From NCBI GenBank assembly GCA_947175435.1, contig CAMWMS010000006.1, positions 1 through 37,746 of the forward strand: 37,746 nt of DNA, given 5' to 3'. Position numbers and translations under genes: made by a program. Under the pieces are notes generated by a model. It did not search any database, was not told the DNA's origin, and saw nothing but the letters and a program-made list of their open reading frames with translations. Source of the stretch: an uncultured Lachnospiraceae bacterium. GTDB lineage: Bacteria > Bacillota > Clostridia > Lachnospirales > Lachnospiraceae. Of the stretch, positions 3,602 to 16,656 are shown piece after piece; positions within the stretch are counted from its first letter, which is position 1, and the number at the start of each line of letters is the position of its first letter.

Positions 3602-4354
3602 ATGTTGGAAGTTAAAAATGTACATAAAGCCTTCGGGCACAATGAGGTGCTTAAGGGTGTGGATATCAAAGTGGATAAAGGTGACATTATTGTCATATTA
3701 GGTCCAAGCGGTTCCGGAAAAACAACATTTTTGCGATGCTTGAACTTTTTGGAAAAAGCTGATCAGGGAACCATGGACTTTGACGATATTCATACGGAGC
3801 TAAAAAGCGCTTCCAAGAGTGTTATTACAAAGGTGAGAAGGAAAACGGCATTTGTATTTCAGAATTATAATCTTTTTCAGAATAAAACCGCTATTCAGAA
3901 TGTAATGGAGGGATTGACCGTTGCACGTAAAGTTCCGAAAGAGGAGGCGCGTCAGATCGCGCAGCAAGCCTTGGATAAGGTAGGACTGGAGGATCGGTAC
4001 GATTATTATCCGTCCCAGCTTTCCGGAGGGCAGCAGCAGAGAGTGGGCATCGCAAGAGCTATTGCAGTGAATCCGGATGTATTGCTTTTTGATGAGCCTA
4101 CTTCAGCGCTGGATCCGGAATTGATCGGTGAAGTCTTAACAGTCATGAAGAAGCTGGCAAAAGAGGGCGCAACCATGATCATTGTTACCCATGAGATGAG
4201 TTTTGCACAGGAAGTAGCCAGTAAGGTGATCTTTATGGACGGCGGCGTGGTCGTGGAGCAGGGCAGCGCAAAGCAGATTTTTACTGCACCGAAAGAAGAG
4301 CGGACATCACAGTTTCTGCATAGGGTGTTGAAAGATTATGATTACGTAATCTAG
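3602..4354 (+). CDS. Amino-acid ABC transporter ATP-binding protein
   Basis: This is a 250-residue ATPase of the polar amino-acid uptake family, which energises the two permeases from the cytoplasmic side. Walker A is GPSGSGKTT, the Q-loop follows FVFQNYNLF, the signature is LSGGQQQR, Walker B is [12 protein letters not shown] and the H-loop is VTHEM. The ATG at 3602 is chosen over 3593 because AGGGAGG at 3586-3592 abuts 3593 but is nine bases from 3602. It closes the importer operon. No strong terminator is evident after its stop, only a weak ATGGT/ACCAT pairing. Confidence 0.94.
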
Positions 4355-4418
4355 TAGGTATGGTTTCAGCTATATTCTGTCACCATGTGAAATAATCGAT
4401 AAAACATTTTGAAAAGTA

Positions 4419-4447
4419 TTGACAATCGTCCAAACGAGTTGTATGAT
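4419..4447 (+). promoter_or_regulatory. Consensus sigma-A promoter for the Rpn nuclease gene
   Basis: TTGACA at 4419-4424 and TATGAT at 4442-4447 are separated by exactly 17 bases. This is near-perfect vegetative promoter spacing. It shows that the nuclease gene is transcribed independently of the importer, with an untranslated leader of roughly 200 bases. Confidence 0.8.
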
Positions 4448-4500
4448 AATCCTATCAAAAATCTTTTGTGAAAATCTGTAGCCTTGTCATGATGGATTAG

Positions 4501-4572
4501 TCAGACAGGTATCTTTGGCAAATCGCCAACATTTTCACAAGCAATTAATGTTGGCAGAGCCGGGATATCTGA
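4501..4572 (+). promoter_or_regulatory. Folded 5' leader of the Rpn gene (candidate cis-acting RNA)
   Basis: Three nested pairings are visible. TCAGA plus TATC (4501-4513) pairs with GATATCTGA (4564-4572), GGC (4517-4519) pairs with GCC (4559-4561), and GCCAACATT (4525-4533) pairs with AATGTTGGC (4547-4555). Together they give an extended hairpin with a 13-base loop inside the leader. No U-tract follows, so it is not a simple terminator. I do not recognise it as a known riboswitch class. The rest of 4573-4650 shows nothing I can name. Confidence 0.35.
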
Positions 4573-8887: not shown

Positions 8888-9116
8888 GGGCAGATTGCGC
8901 AAAATGCTCTCTCGTGTCGGGCTTCGTCATATGGATTTTCTAAAATATTCCGGTAAGGTTGTGGAAACGGACGCAACCGCCCGCTACTCGCCATCCGAGC
9001 TCGGAGCGGGCTTTTCGGGACGTCCGTGTCCCGAAATTGCTGGATAACTTACGGAATATTAAGAAAATCTCATATTCCTACGCAGGACACGAGAGAACAT
9101 TTTGTGCAATCTGCCT
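8888..9116. repeat. 229-bp imperfect palindrome with internal hairpins
   Basis: The outer arms (about 8888-8957 and 9049-9116) are inverted copies over nearly 70 bases with few mismatches. For example, GGCAGATTGC at 8889-8898 matches GCAATCTGCC at 9106-9115, and CTCTCGTGTC matches GACACGAGAG. Inside are at least three short hairpins: GGTTG/CAACC, GCCCGCT/AGCGGGC and TTCGGGAC/GTCCCGAA. As RNA this would fold into a long closed stem with a multi-branch head. It fills the untranslated region between kinase and ATPase genes. It resembles a MITE or other palindromic interspersed element, but no target duplication is obvious and I see no second copy here. The plus-strand GCCCGCT/AGCGGGC stem followed by TTTT is terminator-like. 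Confidence 0.75.
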
Positions 9117-10556: not shown

Positions 10557-11360
10557 TTATGGTTTCCAGCGATATCCGAAGCCGCGGACAGTAGTAAGAT
10601 GTTCTGGGTGCGAAGGATCGGGCTCAATCTTTTCGCGGAGCCGCCGCACATATACGGATAATGTGTTGTCATCTACGAAATCGCCTGCGCTGTCCCACAA
10701 TTCGTTCAGAATAATCTCTCTGGTAACGACTTGGTTTGCGTTTTTTACAAGCAGAGTGAGCAGGCGGTATTCTGCCTTGGTCAGTTCTATGGACTTGCCG
10801 TTTAGTGCTACGCGGCTTGCCGTAAGGTCAATCGTGAGGCTGCCGGAGATAATGACGGACGAATTAGTGATTGTAGCTTGGAGATTATTCCCAGGTACGG
10901 TGGTTCCATAATGGGCAGGGGCAGATGGTACATTAAGCGTTCCGATGGGAATTTCATATGAGGCGGAAGGTGAGTGCGTCTGTGTGGAGATCTGGGTCCG
11001 CCGCAGCAGAGCGCGGATTCGTGAGCAAAGTTCCCCGATCTTAAAAGGCTTCGTGATGTAATCATCACCGCCGCAGTCAAGCCCTCGTATGATATTCACT
11101 TCTTCGTCGGAGGCGGTGAGGAAAATAATAGGAATCTGCTTATTTTGCTGCCGAACCTTTTCACAGACTTCAAAACCGGTTCCGTCGGGAAGGGTGATAT
11201 CGAGAATAAGTAAATCATAATGACTAGATTGGTCAATTGCACTGTTCAATGCGTCGCTTACGGTGCGGACGGTTTCTATATCGAATCCGTTCTTTTGCAG
11301 GGAGTATTCCAGTCCGTCTATGAGGCCGATATCGTCTTCCAGTAGTAATATTTTAGTCAT
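10557..11360 (-). CDS. OmpR/PhoB-family response regulator
   Basis: This is a 267-residue two-component regulator. The receiver domain begins MTKILLLEDDIG; acidic residues at 8-10, phospho-acceptor Asp54 in LILDITLPDG, and the conserved Lys in DDYITKPF are all present. The C-terminal winged helix (about 170-267) shows ELTKAEYRLLTLL, VVTREIILNELW, DNTLSVYVRRLREKI and VRGFGYRW. An unusually long linker of roughly 60 residues, rich in Ser, Thr, Pro and Ala, separates the domains. The Met at 11360 has AGAAAGG at good spacing and matches the family start. It overlaps the HxlR gene by eight bases, so expression is probably coupled. A likely target is the direct-repeat site at 9187-9217. Confidence 0.93.
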   Translation of the reverse strand: MTKILLLEDDIGLIDGLEYSLQKNGFDIETVRTVSDALNSAIDQSSHYDLLILDITLPDGTGFEVCEKVRQQNKQIPIIFLTASDEEVNIIRGLDCGGDDYITKPFKIGELCSRIRALLRRTQISTQTHSPSASYEIPIGTLNVPSAPAHYGTTVPGNNLQATITNSSVIISGSLTIDLTASRVALNGKSIELTKAEYRLLTLLVKNANQVVTREIILNELWDSAGDFVDDNTLSVYVRRLREKIEPDPSHPEHLTTVRGFGYRWKP

Positions 11361-11685
11361 AGGATATGCCTTTCTTATATTCTTCACCCCAGCTATACAT
11401 TGCATCAAGAATCGGGCGCATGGACTCTCCTAATTCGCTTAAGGCATACTCTACGCGGGGTGGCACTTCGGGATAAACGGTTCTCGTGATAATACCGTCA
11501 TCTTCCATGGCACGCAGGGAATCGGTCAATACTTTCTGGCTGATTCCTTCTAAGTCTTTTTTTAATTCATTAAAACGCCACGGACGGGCGAGAAGGTTTC
11601 GTATGATCAGGAGTTTCCACTTGCTGCCGATGATAGATACCGTAGTGGCAACGGGGCATTCCGGTAATTCGTCTTTGGTCTTCAT
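11353..11685 (-). CDS. HxlR-family winged-helix transcriptional regulator
   Basis: This is a 110-residue HxlR/MarR-like DNA-binding protein. Diagnostic features are the N-terminal CPVATTVSIIGSKWKLLIIRNL, then RFNELKKDLEGISQKVLTDSLR and the wing PPRVEYALSELGESMRPIL. HxlR proteins act as dimeric sensors, often of electrophiles or redox state via a conserved N-terminal Cys, here Cys10. The Met at 11685 is preferred because GAGG precedes it and the alternative at 11700 has no ribosome binding site. It is the first gene of the two-component and ABC operon, with its stop inside the regulator's start. That placement suggests a second, cytoplasmic input controlling the cassette. Confidence 0.9.
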   Translation of the reverse strand: MKTKDELPECPVATTVSIIGSKWKLLIIRNLLARPWRFNELKKDLEGISQKVLTDSLRAMEDDGIITRTVYPEVPPRVEYALSELGESMRPILDAMYSWGEEYKKGISYD

Positions 11686-11732
11686 GGCATGATACCTCAT
11701 TTCATTGGTTTCTTTTTGCTACTTATACTCTG

Positions 11733-12080: not shown

Positions 12081-12147
12081 ATATTGTAATTATTATAAGT
12101 AATAAGAAAGCAAACTGCTTAATACAAACTTATAGGAGTTGAGATTT

Positions 12148-12801
12148 ATGGTCGAAGAAATAATTCAACAGCTATTTTCAAAATACCCCAGTAGTATATA
12201 TGGATTTACGAGTATCTCATATAGCTTGTATGCAAGTCAATATAAGTCGGCATTAGTGTTTGCAGTTCCCTATGGAGAGCAACTTACGATTAAAAATTAT
12301 ACAGAAGAAAGGTTCGAAAGAGGAATCCAGGATGCAAAAAAAATAATAGAAGAAATTTTAGTACAAATAGAAGAAATACTTAATGAGCATAAGGTGAAAT
12401 ATTATATTCCGCCTGTAGCACAGAGCAATGAAGAAGAATTAGTTGCTCCGTTTTCATTTAAGTATGCTGCGGTTAATGCCGGATTGGGTTGGATAGGGAA
12501 AAATGATGTTGTCATTACGGAAAAATATGGACCAAGAGTAAGATTGTCTGCAATCTTGATAGACAGTCAATTTGGATATGGGCAAAGAATAATAAAAAGT
12601 AATTGCCCGGATTCGTGTATAAAGTGTGTTCAGATTTGTCCGTATAATGCACTGCATGATGTGAAATGGAATATTGACGCATTGAGAAATGACATTATTG
12701 ACTATCAGTTATGCAACCAAAAAAGAAGTTTGTATATTAAAAAGCATGGAAGAAAAAATGCTTGCGGTCTTTGTATGGTTGCCTGTCCGATTGGAACATA
12801 A
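12148..12801 (+). CDS. QueG-like double 4Fe-4S cluster protein
   Basis: This is a 217-residue protein resembling the iron-sulfur part of epoxyqueuosine reductase-like proteins. AAVNAGLGWIGKNDVVIT is a hallmark. It is followed by PRVRLSAILID, one CxxxCxxCxxxCP-type motif (NCPDSCIKCVQICP) and a second set split between YQLCNQKRS and ACGLCMVACP. It is shorter than QueG (about 380 residues) and lacks a recognisable cobalamin-binding region and HEAT repeats, so queuosine function is doubtful. A stand-alone redox role is possible. The ATG at 12148 has AGGAG nine bases upstream and is preferred to the TTG at 12139. A strong terminator follows, separating it from the peptide locus. Confidence 0.8.
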   Translation: MVEEIIQQLFSKYPSSIYGFTSISYSLYASQYKSALVFAVPYGEQLTIKNYTEERFERGIQDAKKIIEEILVQIEEILNEHKVKYYIPPVAQSNEEELVAPFSFKYAAVNAGLGWIGKNDVVITEKYGPRVRLSAILIDSQFGYGQRIIKSNCPDSCIKCVQICPYNALHDVKWNIDALRNDIIDYQLCNQKRSLYIKKHGRKNACGLCMVACPIGT

Positions 12802-12896: not shown

Positions 12897-13070
12897 GTGT
12901 ATAGGAGTTTCTTTTTGATAATCAGATACTCCATTTGTATTAATGAAACAAGGCATAGGTTACTTTTTTGTAACTATGTAATAAAATTGTGCGTACTTTT
13001 ATATTCTGGCTACTCTTGTTAAGATGAACTTGTCGAAAGGCAGAATATAAAACATACAGGAGGATTGGTT

Positions 13071-13286
13071 ATGGCATTATCAAATGTTGCAGAATTTGCA
13101 GGAAATGTAAGCGCATGCGGAGCAAGTGACAAGCCGTCTGCATGTGGTGCAGCGTCACCGGAAGAGAAACCGAGTGCATGCGGAAGCGCGTGCGGAGCAA
13201 GCGATAAGCCGAGTGCATGCGGAGCGGCAGCACCGGAGGAAAAACCGAGCGCATGTGGGAGTGCATGCGGTGCCGGAGATAAGTAG
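13071..13286 (+). CDS. ACGX-repeat peptide (putative radical SAM-modified precursor)
   Basis: This is a 71-residue peptide with a short leader-like start (MALSNVAEFAGNVS) and then seven ACGA or ACGS motifs separated by SDKPS or (S/A)PEEKPS spacers. All seven Cys lie in these motifs. The core is a 25-residue unit present twice plus a final ACGAGDK. The next gene encodes a radical SAM/SPASM enzyme, and I recall family names of the form ACGX-repeat peptide and radical SAM/SPASM protein, ACGX system for such pairs. The likely fate is peptide modification at or near the Cys, for example thioether formation, but no product is known to me. AGGAGG at 13058-13063, seven bases before the ATG at 13071, fixes the start. 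No protease or exporter gene is adjacent. Confidence 0.88.
   Translation: MALSNVAEFAGNVSACGASDKPSACGAASPEEKPSACGSACGASDKPSACGAAAPEEKPSACGSACGAGDK
13113..13262 (+). repeat. 75-base tandem duplication in the peptide core
   Basis: Bases 13113-13187 and 13188-13262 encode the same 25-residue unit (ACGASDKPSACGA...PEEKPSACGS), differing at one residue, Ser versus Ala before PEE. A third unit begins at 13263 but stops after seven residues. The copies differ at several synonymous positions, so the duplication is not brand new. Confidence 0.9.
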
Positions 13287-13317
13287 ATTATCAGCTTAAT
13301 ACCGGCTAAGGAATGAC

Positions 13318-13350
13318 TCAGAGTCGGTCATAACTGGGAGCCGGCTCTGA
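13318..13350 (+). terminator. Hairpin between peptide and maturase genes (attenuator candidate)
   Basis: TCAGAGTCGG (13318-13327) pairs with CCGGCTCTGA (13341-13350) with one wobble and a 13-base loop. There is no T-run after it, so it may act as a partial terminator or as an RNA-processing or stability site. This would give much peptide mRNA and little enzyme mRNA, as is common in peptide-modification operons. Confidence 0.5.
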
Positions 13351-13409
13351 ATCATGACCGGATATATGGGCAGATATATGACGAGACATTTGAAAGGACT
13401 GTAATATTC

Positions 13410-14441
13410 ATGAAACCTTATTTTGCTTTTCAATGGCATATAACAGATTATTGTGACCAGAGATGTAAACATTGTTATATTTTTTCAGAAGGAAAATGCA
13501 GCGAGCTTCTGTCCATGAGTTTTGATAACATGAAAAGGGTTATTTCCAATATAGAAGATATGTGTGAACGCCTAGACCGCACACCCTATTTTTATATCAC
13601 GGGCGGAGATCCCATTCTGCACCCTGATTTCTGGGAACTTATGGAGTTGATGAAACAAAAAGGCTATAAGTTTACTATTATGGGAAATCCGTTTCATTTA
13701 ACGGATGAGGTGTGCCGCAGGCTGAAAGAATGCGGTTGTGAGAAATATCAGATGTCCATTGACGGTATGCGGGAAACACATGATTACTTCCGAAAGCCAG
13801 ACTCTTTTGATTGTACGGTGGAAAAAATAGCGGTTATCCGCAATGCGGGTATTAAGTGTGCGATCATGTCTACGGTATCGGGAACAAATATAAAAGAAAT
13901 GCCCGATGTGGTTGATCTGGTTGTAGAGCACAAAGTAGATATTTTTGCTTTCGGAAGATATTGTCCCACAAGCGAAGAAAAGGATACGGGAATTCAGCCG
14001 CTTGTATACAGGGATTTTCTGGATAAGCTGTGGCATAAATATGAGACATACAAAGAGCAGGGAGTGAACACCTATTTCAATTTGAAAGATCATTTGTGGA
14101 CGCTTTACCTTTATGAAAAGGGACTTTTCCGGATTCCGGAGTATGCCAGGAAGGATATGGTTTACGAGGGATGTCATTGCGGCATCTGCCACATGACAAT
14201 ACTGCCGAACGGCGACGTGTATGCATGCCGGAGATTTGAAAGTAAAGTCGGGAATGTTTTTCGGGATACACTCTATGATATTTTTATTTCAAAAGAAGAA
14301 ATCTATCGGGATTATGATAAATTTGAAAAATGCAGCAAGTGTGAACTGAGGGGTTTTTGCCGCGGCTGTCCTGCCGTAACCTATGGGACTACGGGAAACT
14401 TTTACGGAGCAGATCCGCAGTGTTGGAAAGAAGTAGAGTAA
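13410..14441 (+). CDS. Radical SAM/SPASM peptide maturase (ACGX-system type)
   Basis: This is a 343-residue radical SAM enzyme. The SAM-binding 4Fe-4S motif CxxxCxxC is Cys15, Cys19 and Cys22 in ITDYCDQRCKHCY. The GGDP motif at 65-68 is the SAM-contacting element. The SPASM-like C-terminus has Cys at 255, 257, 260, 273, 308, 311, 317, 320 and 338, enough for two auxiliary clusters; MTILPNGDVYACRRFESKVGN is a typical SPASM signature. Such enzymes use auxiliary clusters to install thioether or carbon-carbon links in peptides. The substrate is almost certainly the ACGX peptide 124 bases upstream. The ribosome binding site AAAGGA is rather distant (11 bases), suggesting modest translation compared with the peptide. 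Confidence 0.93.
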   Translation: MKPYFAFQWHITDYCDQRCKHCYIFSEGKCSELLSMSFDNMKRVISNIEDMCERLDRTPYFYITGGDPILHPDFWELMELMKQKGYKFTIMGNPFHLTDEVCRRLKECGCEKYQMSIDGMRETHDYFRKPDSFDCTVEKIAVIRNAGIKCAIMSTVSGTNIKEMPDVVDLVVEHKVDIFAFGRYCPTSEEKDTGIQPLVYRDFLDKLWHKYETYKEQGVNTYFNLKDHLWTLYLYEKGLFRIPEYARKDMVYEGCHCGICHMTILPNGDVYACRRFESKVGNVFRDTLYDIFISKEEIYRDYDKFEKCSKCELRGFCRGCPAVTYGTTGNFYGADPQCWKEVE

Positions 14442-14442
14442 G

Positions 14443-14484
14443 GTAACAGTTTAATCAGGTCTACGCATTTACTGCGCTGACCGT
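14443..14484 (+). repeat. Partial copy of the GTAAC-type palindromic repeat
   Basis: GTAAC at 14443 through GACCGT at 14484 matches the left half of the repeat at 34986-35030. Both have GTAAC, then AGGTC, three bases, GC ATTTACT GC, three bases and GACC. The paired arms (GGTC/GACC and GC/GC) are kept while the intervening bases differ. The copy directly follows the maturase stop and forms most of the gap before the nitroreductase. Confidence 0.6.
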
Positions 14485-14503
14485 GCAAAAGAGTGGGGTT
14501 GTA

Positions 14504-15094
14504 ATGACGAATGAAGTGTTAGAGAATATGATGACGAGAAGAACCATCCGCCGTTTCAAGGAGGAGCAGATCAGCGAAGAGGAATTGCAGGCTGTATTGG
14601 ATGCGGGTATGTATGCTCCAAGCGCAGGCGGGAGACAGAGCGTGCTGTTTGTGGTATCGCAGAACAGGGAAATGAATGAAAAACTGGGAAGGATCAAACG
14701 AAACAATTCTACGGTAAAGATGTCAACGGACACCGTATACATTTCAAAAGAACAGCCCAGTATCGCCGATGATCCTAATATTTTCAACGCTTTTTATGAC
14801 GCGCCCACGGTCATTACATTGTTTGTACCTAAGAATTTTCTGTTCGCTCCCTACGATGCCAGCGCTGCAGCAGAAAATATGCTGCTTGCCGCGCATTCCA
14901 TTGGTTTAGGCGGGTGTTATATCGGGTCTGCATGGGAATCGTTTGCAGATCCGTATGGACAGGATGTTTTGCGGGAATGGAATATCAGAACGGATTATTT
15001 TGCGGCTCTCCATGTCCTGCTAGGCTATCCGAAAGACAATCAGGCGCCAAAGGCGAAGGCGCGGAAGGACGGGCGGATTATCAGGGTGAACTGA
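14504..15094 (+). CDS. Nitroreductase-family FMN protein
   Basis: This is a 196-residue nitroreductase-fold protein. Markers are RRTIRRFKEEQISEEELQAVLDAGMYAPSAGGRQ (an Arg-rich FMN-phosphate site and an SAGGRQ flavin contact), AAENMLLAAHSIGLGGCYIGS, and a C-terminal LLGYPKD. These proteins are homodimers that bind FMN and use NAD(P)H or act on specific substrates, including peptide dehydrogenation in azole-forming pathways. The ATG at 14504 is chosen because the longer frame from GTG 14483 lies in repeat DNA; the ribosome binding site is poor (GGGGT), so it may rely on coupling. It sits between the maturase and a flavin/ferredoxin gene, which suggests a redox step in peptide tailoring, but it could be a general nitroreductase. 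Confidence 0.9.
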   Translation: MTNEVLENMMTRRTIRRFKEEQISEEELQAVLDAGMYAPSAGGRQSVLFVVSQNREMNEKLGRIKRNNSTVKMSTDTVYISKEQPSIADDPNIFNAFYDAPTVITLFVPKNFLFAPYDASAAAENMLLAAHSIGLGGCYIGSAWESFADPYGQDVLREWNIRTDYFAALHVLLGYPKDNQAPKAKARKDGRIIRVN

Positions 15095-15116
15095 CAGACC
15101 GGAAGGAGGATGGAAA

Positions 15117-15734
15117 ATGGATTTGAGGACTTGTCTGCAAAAGCTGCAGTATGTAGGAGTATTAAATTTTGCAACCGTGGGTGAAGACGGATCACCGCAG
15201 ATCCGTAATATCAGCGCCATACATTATGAGGAGGACGGATTCTATTTTTTTACTGCTAGGGGAAAAGATTTTTGTAAACAATTGCTCGGTGACGGGCGGG
15301 TTCAGGTACTTGGATATACTAAATATAAAGAGATGATCCGGCTGTCCGGCAAGGCTTATCCTGTGGAAGCTGACATGCAGGAAAAATGGATCGATACCAT
15401 ATTTGCGGAGCAGCCTTATCTTGCAAATGTATATCCCAATGATACAAGAAAAATCGGTATCGTGTTTGCCGTCAAAGATGTGACGATCGAATATTTTAAT
15501 CTTGGTGTGAACCCTATTTTCAGAGAAACCTATACGATGGGTAATGCACAAAAGGCAGAAAAAGGTTATCATATAACAGAACGATGTATCGGCTGCGGAA
15601 CCTGTCAAAAAAACTGTCCGCAGAAATGTATCAAAAAAGGGCAGCCATATTATATAGAACAAAACCATTGCCTGCATTGCGGAAGTTGTATGGAGCATTG
15701 TCCGGTACAGGCGGTCATATCAAGAAAAGGGTGA
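15117..15734 (+). CDS. PNPOx-like flavin barrel fused to a 2[4Fe-4S] ferredoxin
   Basis: This is a 205-residue fusion protein. Residues 1-135 form a pyridoxamine-phosphate-oxidase-like split barrel (GVLNFATVGEDGSPQIRNIS, then FYFFTARGKDF), a fold that binds FMN or F420. Residues about 150-205 are a bacterial ferredoxin with two full cluster motifs, Cys157/160/163/167 and Cys185/188/191/195. It is probably an electron carrier linking flavin and iron-sulfur chemistry. AAGGAGG seven bases before the ATG gives a strong start, and the gene begins 22 bases after the nitroreductase. It could supply electrons to the radical SAM enzyme or to the nitroreductase, which is inference from context. Confidence 0.9.
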   Translation: MDLRTCLQKLQYVGVLNFATVGEDGSPQIRNISAIHYEEDGFYFFTARGKDFCKQLLGDGRVQVLGYTKYKEMIRLSGKAYPVEADMQEKWIDTIFAEQPYLANVYPNDTRKIGIVFAVKDVTIEYFNLGVNPIFRETYTMGNAQKAEKGYHITERCIGCGTCQKNCPQKCIKKGQPYYIEQNHCLHCGSCMEHCPVQAVISRKG

Positions 15735-15738
15735 GAAC

Positions 15739-16656
15739 ATGTTACTTATGCGGTCTAAAGAACAAAACACAATGAGTATGACAAACGAAATATCAGCACT
15801 CCGGCAGGCGATAGAACAGGCGGAAACGGTTATCGTCGGCGCAGGTGCAGGTCTCTCTACGGCGGCGGGGTTTACTTACAGCGGAGAGCGTTTTCAAACA
15901 TATTTCGGAGATTTTGCTTCAAAATACCATTTTAAGGATATGTATGCAGGAGGTTTTTATCCATATGACAGCTTAAATGAGCATTGGGCATTTTGGAGTC
16001 GGAATATTTATGTAAACCGATATATGAACGCCCCGAAACCTGTTTATGAGGATCTGCTTGCGCTGGTAAAGGATAAAGACTACTTTGTGATTACGACGAA
16101 TGTGGACCACTGTTTTCAGAAAGCAGGATTTGACAAAAAAAGATTATATTATACGCAGGGGGATTATGGATTATTTCAATGTAGCGAGCCATGTCATGAT
16201 AAAACATACGACAATGCGAAAACTATATATGAGATGGTGAAGGCACAGGGGTATCAGATTGGAGCAGACGGCAGTCTGTACTTGCCCGAGGATGTGACTG
16301 CAAAGATGTCAGTATCTGACGAATTGATTCCCCGCTGCCCAAAATGCGGTAAGCCCATGAGCATGAATCTGAGGGCGGATGACACATTCGTGCAGGATGA
16401 GGGATGGTATCAGGCAACGGAGCGGTACGAAACATTCTTAAGGCGGCACCGGGATACAAAAGTGCTGTTTTTGGAATTAGGTGTGGGATATAATACCCCG
16501 GGCATTATCAAATATCCGTTCTGGCAGATGACGGCAGGAAATTCCAAGGCGATTTATGCTTGTATCAATTATGGAGAAGCCGTCTGCCCACATGAGATTG
16601 AAAAACAGTCCATATGCATTGATGGGGATATTGGGAAAGTGTTGAGTTGTTTTTAA
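15739..16656 (+). CDS. Sir2-family protein, class M-like (SirTM) with Gln at the catalytic His position
   Basis: This is a 305-residue sirtuin-fold protein. The NAD-binding motif GAGAGLSTAAG (34-44), the TTNVD motif (119-123) and four zinc-type Cys (148, 152, 200, 203) are visible. Where deacetylase sirtuins have the catalytic HG, this protein reads YYTQGDYG, with Gln140 in place of His. That substitution is a hallmark I recall for class M sirtuins (SirTM), described as protein ADP-ribosyltransferases in operons with a macrodomain and lipoyl-carrier protein. Those partners are absent here. The start at 15739 (AGGGTGAG upstream) lies four bases after the ferredoxin-fusion stop, so it is very likely translated from the same mRNA. 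A late in-frame ATG at 15775 is possible. Confidence 0.85.
   Translation: MLLMRSKEQNTMSMTNEISALRQAIEQAETVIVGAGAGLSTAAGFTYSGERFQTYFGDFASKYHFKDMYAGGFYPYDSLNEHWAFWSRNIYVNRYMNAPKPVYEDLLALVKDKDYFVITTNVDHCFQKAGFDKKRLYYTQGDYGLFQCSEPCHDKTYDNAKTIYEMVKAQGYQIGADGSLYLPEDVTAKMSVSDELIPRCPKCGKPMSMNLRADDTFVQDEGWYQATERYETFLRRHRDTKVLFLELGVGYNTPGIIKYPFWQMTAGNSKAIYACINYGEAVCPHEIEKQSICIDGDIGKVLSCF

Follow-up and report, generated by a model that had tools for sequence, protein, structure and literature searches.

Which protein does a sirtuin modify when its gene lies directly behind the genes for a cysteine-repeat peptide and a radical S-adenosylmethionine (SAM) enzyme? This question is raised by a locus of an uncultured Lachnospiraceae bacterium on a contig of 37,746 nucleotides (CAMWMS010000006.1 of assembly GCA_947175435.1), hereafter called the window, which comprises the whole stretch of DNA analyzed. 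The window is contig C6 of a draft genome (G000) with 293 contigs and a completeness of 82%. Five genes follow each other in tandem on the plus strand, separated by 123, 41, 22, and 4 bases. They combine an ACGX peptide system with two flavoproteins and a class M sirtuin (SirTM), for which the mature peptide is a possible target:

13071..13286, plus strand: ACGX-repeat peptide of 71 amino acids with seven ACGX motifs (TIGR04341, 58.6 bits, cut-off 28)
13410..14441, plus strand: radical SAM/SPASM maturase of the ACGX system, 343 amino acids (TIGR04340, 587.5 bits, cut-off 400; PF04055, PF13186)
14483..15094, plus strand: flavin mononucleotide (FMN) nitroreductase-family protein (PF00881, E=8e-24), with the ATG at 14504 as possible other start
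15117..15734, plus strand: PNPOx-type flavin barrel fused to a 2[4Fe-4S] ferredoxin, hereafter PNPOx-Fd (PF01243, PF00037; 2hhz and ferredoxins in the PDB)
15739..16656, plus strand: SirTM, predicted protein ADP-ribosyltransferase (5a3a, E=1.4e-64)

Since peptide and maturase both exceed the curated cut-offs, the name ACGX system, which a first-pass annotation of the sequence had given to this locus, is correct, and its reading of the pair as following the logic of ribosomally synthesized and post-translationally modified peptides (RiPPs) is upheld. Also, the family searches recovered the gene row it had described, with a 71-residue peptide carrying seven ACGX motifs, a SPASM enzyme, a nitroreductase, and an FMN barrel joined to a ferredoxin. 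For the analysis of neighborhoods, the best-scoring 80 of 415 maturase-homologous loci were used, a non-random set mostly from draft genomes, in which peptide, maturase, and partners recur with varying completeness. As both lead families lie far above their cut-offs and the genes recur together, the arrangement is not due to chance. The closest maturase loci with names belong to metagenome-assembled genomes of Lachnospiraceae and Clostridia; Bacteroidota were covered by loci of the maturase set and by a SirTM search in the genomes of SirTM-free loci.

The maturase possesses the CxxxCxxC motif and nine cysteines beyond residue 250. In an alignment of 27 sequences including that of the window, C255, C257, C273, C308, C311, C317, C320, and C338 are invariant and C260 is conserved in at least 90%. 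A peptide with at least three motifs is encoded within 1 kb upstream of the maturase in 78 of the 80 loci; for the remaining two (L055 and L080), tblastn locates the peptide at a greater distance upstream or finds it truncated at the end of the contig. In L010 and L066, radical SAM enzyme and reductase form one continuous open frame each, possibly due to draft errors. In L064 (8001-9020, Fonticella tunisiensis), the third codon in the matched part of the maturase is a stop, perhaps owing to start misplacement or a sequence error. A literature search, largely without subscription journals, revealed no paper on TIGR04340 or on ACGX together with radical SAM, and by titles none in which radical SAM enzymes are treated along with sirtuins, macrodomains, or ADP-ribosylation. 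Papers in which the word ACGX occurs appear, by title and the start of the abstract, to deal with other subjects.

The fifth protein, noted in the first-pass annotation as having a sirtuin fold, is indeed a sirtuin and can be specified further. It matches SirTM of Streptococcus pyogenes (5a3a) over residues 17-303 of 305 and the macrodomain-SirTM protein 8rsn with E=1.5e-24, whereas ordinary deacylases match at E of 0.14 or worse and the PF02146 score stays below the Pfam gathering score. The three residues required for ADP-ribosyl transfer by SirTM according to the available part of one report (Asn118, Gln137, and Arg192; PMC4518038) have their counterparts in N121, Q140, and R212, with Gln in place of the usual sirtuin His. 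These residues and the four cysteines of the zinc site are invariant in all 41 aligned SirTM copies (6 of 46 cluster members outside 260-345 amino acids were left out). Judged from its sequence, the window sirtuin is thus of class M, the ADP-ribosyltransferase type. A generic sirtuin deacylase was rejected, since deacylase models stay far below their cut-offs (best model 30.4 bits, cut-off 243) and SirTM is the match instead.

For an estimate of how tightly SirTM is tied to ACGX genes, 291 genomes of at least 80% completeness were drawn evenly from the class without selection by maturase, and SirTM matches were accepted up to E of 1e-15. SirTM was found in 56 and the ACGX maturase in 13 of these genomes. 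All 13 genomes with maturase encode SirTM, compared to 43 of the 278 others (Fisher p=1.4e-10, relatedness ignored). In 12 of the 13, SirTM follows the maturase on its contig and strand at a distance of 1.3-3.7 kb; in the exception (G333), a divergent SirTM is encoded on a different contig. In the set of 61 relatives, 12 genomes have the maturase, and 11 of these encode SirTM (10 linked, unlinked in G031, none in G053) versus 18 of the other 49. In the neighborhood set, SirTM was detected within 3.5 kb downstream in 37 of the 58 loci with at least 4 kb of downstream sequence.

Of the 12 genomes of the class sample in which SirTM is linked, 11 have a macrodomain gene directly beside it, that is, every one (11/11) other than that of the window. 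The macrodomain of L103 exceeds the NCBIfam cut-off for a protein-ADP-ribose hydrolase (353 versus 272 bits). Within 4 kb, a macrodomain is present in 19 of the 58 loci with sufficient downstream sequence, and a macrodomain without SirTM occurs in none of the 80 maturase loci.

The reductase behind the maturase varies. For its count, 73 loci with 1.2 kb or more of downstream sequence were used. A nitroreductase gene on the same strand follows within 1 kb in 48 of them, 45 times within 300 bases (in L046, L084, and L095 it lies behind another gene), and a zinc-dehydrogenase-like (MDR) gene within 0.4 kb in 19. The encoded protein is nearest to the PIG3 quinone oxidoreductase model, below its cut-off. 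Both genes occur downstream in none of the 73 loci and neither in 6; the MDR locus L056 also has a nitroreductase gene 3.2 kb away on the opposite strand. On the maturase tree, a quick tree without bootstrap, at least four changes between nitroreductase and MDR are forced, and parsimony counts seven. Nitroreductase and PIG3-like reductase are therefore interchangeable, mutually exclusive alternatives. PNPOx-Fd was rejected as a fixed part of the locus, since 24 of the 58 loci with 4 kb or more of downstream sequence contain it. Macrodomain/SirTM pairs without ACGX genes (L146, L152, L158, and L159) are accompanied by a second subfamily of PNPOx-ferredoxin proteins, which score about 150 bits against the ACGX profile.

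Upstream, a regulator gene is recurrently found on the opposite strand. The features between this gene and the peptide start are:

11353..11700, minus strand: HxlR/DUF24-family regulator, divergent, with N-terminal 'CP' cysteine (PF01638, E=3e-32)
12960..12998, plus strand: operator-like element TTAC-N6-GTAAC ... GTGCGTACTT, by motif conservation upstream of peptide genes
13020..13025, plus strand: probable extended -10, TGtTAAGAT, assigned by eye
13058-13063, plus strand: AGGAGG preceding the peptide gene

The regulator contains the HxlR domain and an N-terminal cysteine in the motif ECPVATT; its nearest NCBIfam model is the redox regulator RrpB (119.9 bits, below the cut-off of 175). An HxlR gene on the opposite strand lies within 4.5 kb in 56 of the 63 loci with at least 2.5 kb upstream, and 64 of 66 clustered HxlR homologues show CP within the first 60 residues. 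TTAC-N6-GTAAC followed by AAGTGCGTACTT is located 99-143 bases 5′ of the peptide ATG. For the counts, upstream regions of 76 loci were used, excluding L055, L080, L065, L082, and L094, in which the peptide was not called within 1 kb or lies too close to the end of the contig. TTAC-N6-GTAA is exact in 32 regions versus 0.3 in mononucleotide shuffles and found with up to one mismatch in 51 versus 11.6, while AAGTGCGTACTT occurs with up to two mismatches in 57 versus 0.5 in shuffles; these counts overstate the surprise, because the motif had been derived from these very loci, many of which are related to each other, and the comparison is partly circular. None of the 16 loci with Bacteroidota titles has the element within two mismatches. 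The strict joint pattern gave four sites in the 61 genomes of relatives. Each of them lies at a gene for an ACGX peptide, which in G013 is truncated and immediately followed by SirTM. Thereby, 3 of the 12 genomes with maturase are matched, and the other 9 have no strict match. The HxlR protein of the window may bind at 12960-12998. A 4Fe-4S protein of 220 amino acids (12139-12801, plus strand), similar to QueG and reductive dehalogenases but below the cut-offs of those models, is encoded between the HxlR and peptide genes and lies further upstream in the kin loci L031 and L034.

Regulators of this kind are known from Bacillus, where, according to the available part of a paper on such regulons (PMC6943732), HypR, YodB, and CatR sense HOCl, quinones, and diamide by an N-terminal cysteine, the nitroreductase YodC belongs to the regulon, and HxlR itself responds to aldehydes. 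For SirTM, the accessible sections of two reports (PMC4518038, PMC11490716) describe an operon in which the carrier GcvH-L and LplA2, the enzyme dedicated to its modification, are encoded together with SirTM, a zinc macrodomain, and two flavin oxidoreductases. In that system, which is tied to oxidative stress, SirTM acts once GcvH-L is lipoylated, and the authors propose that the lipoyl group is a scavenger kept off by ADP-ribose. Zinc macrodomains are reported there to cleave ADP-ribose linked to cysteine or to acidic residues.

From these parallels we tentatively favor a thiol/electrophile-stress operon wired like the SirTM/GcvH-L system, with an intracellular, modified cysteine-repeat peptide as carrier. 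A redox-sensing HxlR protein at the conserved upstream element would switch on expression of the small peptide, which would remain inside the cell, and the SPASM enzyme would modify its cysteines. The product may act as a scavenger or thiol redox carrier that a NAD(P)H/flavin reductase uses or regenerates (the nitroreductase here, a quinone-reductase-like enzyme elsewhere), with PNPOx-Fd as putative electron donor. SirTM would place ADP-ribose on the mature peptide, at Cys or at Asp/Glu of the linkers, and thereby silence it. Removal of the ADP-ribose would fall to a zinc macrodomain, the gene of which many relatives carry next to SirTM or at another site. Peptide and maturase would thus occupy the slot of lipoylated GcvH-L and LplA2 in the operon of Streptococcus and Staphylococcus. 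Of this picture, the gene content, the linkage, the conserved upstream element, and the intact catalytic residues of SirTM are observed; the control by HxlR, the chemistry, the role in redox metabolism, the location in the cell, and the peptide as target are inferred. We take the mature peptide as a possible target of SirTM, with odds somewhat below even, because the locus shares the grammar of the SirTM operon. The Asp and Glu of the linkers and the many Cys of the peptide are also of the kinds that zinc macrodomains are reported to clear of ADP-ribose. A reversible switch of ADP-ribosylation by SirTM and zinc macrodomain on this peptide may be considered, with somewhat more reserve.

The chief rival to the peptide as target is a shared stress regulon without contact, in which the HxlR-controlled SirTM/macrodomain/PNPOx-Fd genes have a target of their own, the ACGX genes have joined through the same stress, and SirTM never touches the peptide. 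We regard this as a serious possibility, itself short of probable, and several observations speak for it and against the peptide as target. Of the 58 ACGX loci whose downstream sequence reaches 4 kb or more, 20 have no SirTM there; 11 of these 20 genomes encode SirTM elsewhere and 9 show none, seven of the nine being Bacteroidota by record title. Conversely, SirTM occurs without maturase in 43 genomes of the class sample. Loci from 20 of them were examined, and a macrodomain match adjoins SirTM in all 20 (partial or masked in L153 and L160), with PNPOx-Fd relatives in 6 and HxlR in 4. The module of SirTM, macrodomain, PNPOx-Fd, and HxlR thus exists without ACGX genes, and an element of the same type precedes such an ACGX-free locus (L159, with HxlR, PNPOx-Fd, macrodomain, and SirTM). 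Also, a natural deletion in G013 (L165, 11079-12145) has left the upstream element, a truncated peptide in which two ACG motifs remain, and SirTM, which is intact; the genome has no maturase, and no reductase was found beside these remains. One of the 20 loci examined from genomes without maturase, L154 (G243), has an ACGX peptide remnant with upstream element on the reverse strand near 4268-4520 and a joint open frame of nitroreductase and PNPOx-Fd, with no maturase match; it is apparently a decayed ACGX locus.

Against the shared regulon stands the near-total linkage in the class sample, with SirTM adjacent in 12 of 13 genomes, a linkage that was made or broken repeatedly. This follows from a tree of 60 SirTM sequences (39 ACGX-linked and 21 rows from 20 other loci), on which the ACGX-linked copies do not form one clade; gains and losses are not told apart. 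A single ACGX-linked clade was rejected by approximately unbiased (AU) tests (p-AU 0.0012; 0.00013 after reassignment of L154; 0.00017 on omission of the four rows that diverge most), and the ACGX label changes seven or eight times by parsimony and at least two times by the starred branches. A second point against it comes from the known target. Using PF01597, we searched for GcvH in 22 of the 24 ACGX genomes (G031 and G053 were left out). A full-length GcvH is encoded in 1 of the 22, namely G333 (three matches), which is also the genome with the unlinked SirTM in the class sample, and 12 have no match. The other 9 genomes, which weaken this point, have partial GCV_H matches, which cover about 55-65 of 122 positions with 21-29 bits and in eight of these genomes exceed the cut-off of 22.2 slightly, with at most 29.1 bits; G000 has such a partial match only (positions 24-81 of 122, 23.8 bits, contig C81). 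By length alone, we read the partial matches as biotinyl/lipoyl-type domains. GcvH-L as local SirTM target was judged unlikely, because the full-length protein was found in only one of the 22 ACGX genomes searched. Since SirTM is also present where ACGX genes are absent and is missing from some ACGX loci, it is a frequent accessory; the core consists of peptide, maturase, and reductase, joined in most loci by HxlR.

According to another explanation, the peptide is the precursor of a small cofactor or metallophore, similar to PQQ or mycofactocin, tailored by the flavoenzymes, with SirTM and macrodomain as accessories. The combination of peptide, SPASM enzyme, and interchangeable oxidoreductases would fit, and after TIGR04340 the maturase scores best with the model of the thio(seleno)oxazole maturase SbtM, at 178.8 bits and thus under the cut-off of 350. 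On the other hand, the number of ACGX motifs ranges from 3, the detection floor, to 10 across the peptides with no single conserved core, so that a multivalent scaffold fits better than a precursor. Also, no peptidase stands out among the recurrent neighbors. For these, clusters of open reading frames were built over 92 loci, and exporters, proteases, and metal-related genes were judged by cluster size and by eye, without family search. The largest clusters are radical SAM enzyme/nitroreductase, HxlR, SirTM, PNPOx-Fd, and macrodomain, followed by one of 12/92 loci with mixed strand and no fixed place, ABC-ATPase-like by eye. DUF1848 (PF08902) genes near ACGX/SirTM loci, e.g. L040 11928-12869, form a cluster of 9/92 loci. 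As a whole, we consider the precursor improbable.

The neighborhoods also bear on the first-pass annotation. Its statement that exporter and protease are missing agrees with our finding that, by cluster size and without family search, neither stands out as a recurrent neighbor, and a toxin or bacteriocin RiPP was rejected on this basis. The neighborhood survey it had proposed, with partners unlinked in related genomes as the refuting outcome, showed recurring redox partners, so that this outcome did not occur. Of the partners, PNPOx-Fd and SirTM are frequent, not obligatory, and the nitroreductase is replaceable. The HxlR regulator, the operator-like element, and the macrodomain of relatives had been overlooked. 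In sum, its observation was confirmed and its interpretation partly supported.

Quite improbable, in our view, is an intracellular peptide for metal or Fe-S handling whose modification tunes metal binding: the Cys-rich repeats and nearby Fe-S enzymes would suit it, but no metal-related gene was noticed among the recurrent clusters by eye, without family search, and regulator and partners are of the thiol/electrophile-stress type. Least of all do we expect ADP-ribose addition to be a maturation step instead of a reversible switch, at least in the clade of this species without adjacent macrodomain, for although no macrodomain was found in the window or in its own 82% complete draft genome, nor within 8 kb downstream in the near kin L031, L034, and L040-L042, the relatives G006, G018, G022, and G031, in which the contig with SirTM has none, encode one on a different contig. 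The missing macrodomain, which in itself also weighs against a reversible switch, may be a gap in the draft.

Apart from this locus, the sole Rfam match of the window at gathering threshold is a TwoAYGGAY RNA (RF01731) at 8919-9085 on the minus strand (108 bits).

If the mature peptide is the substrate of a reversible switch by SirTM and zinc macrodomain, it would be the first RiPP-type peptide governed by ADP-ribosylation and the second class of SirTM target. SirTMs would then generally gate swappable thiol-redox carriers, i.e. lipoyl-GcvH-L in some bacteria and radical-modified cysteine-repeat peptides in Clostridia and some Bacteroidales. For a SirTM group with one known target, the ACGX locus offers a concrete candidate target. 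It supplies a small, easily made candidate substrate, modifier, writer, the eraser of relatives, redox partners, and a candidate operator, and because these are named, the question of the target becomes testable with purified parts. For the ACGX family, a physiological hypothesis is gained, namely thiol/electrophile stress in anaerobes.

In ranthipeptides, sactipeptides, and other SPASM-matured RiPPs, a small Cys-rich peptide is encoded ahead of a SPASM radical SAM gene. The ACGX locus differs in that no exporter, protease, or toxin-like context was noticed at ACGX loci. The ACGX models themselves (TIGR04340 rSAM_ACGX and TIGR04341 target_ACGX), whose cut-offs both window proteins exceed, cover peptide and maturase by name; the alternation of reductases, HxlR with its element, and the linkage of SirTM and macrodomain are new here. 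With the HypR/YodB/CatR/HxlR stress regulons of Bacillus, the locus shares an HxlR-family regulator with N-terminal Cys and a nitroreductase, whereas ACGX peptide, maturase, and SirTM are not part of the regulon descriptions in the available part of that paper (PMC6943732). Lone Zn-Macro/SirTM pairs, as far as the accessible text describes them (PMC11490716), comprise the same enzymes, in the class sample in some cases with HxlR and PNPOx-Fd, and unlike the ACGX locus have no ACGX peptide or maturase. According to the same source, GcvH-L is the sole known SirTM target, and the targets of other SirTM/Zn-Macro systems are unknown (PMC11490716). Closest is the extended SirTM operon of Streptococcus and Staphylococcus (LplA2, GcvH-L, Zn-Macro, SirTM, OYE, and LLM), as outlined in the accessible sections of PMC4518038 and PMC11490716. 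The ACGX locus deviates from it by a Cys-repeat peptide and a radical SAM enzyme instead of lipoylated GcvH-L, by nitroreductase and PNPOx-Fd as flavoenzymes, and by the macrodomain not found in the window genome. Both share an intact SirTM, two flavin oxidoreductases, a carrier with a dedicated modifier, and, in many relatives, the macrodomain.

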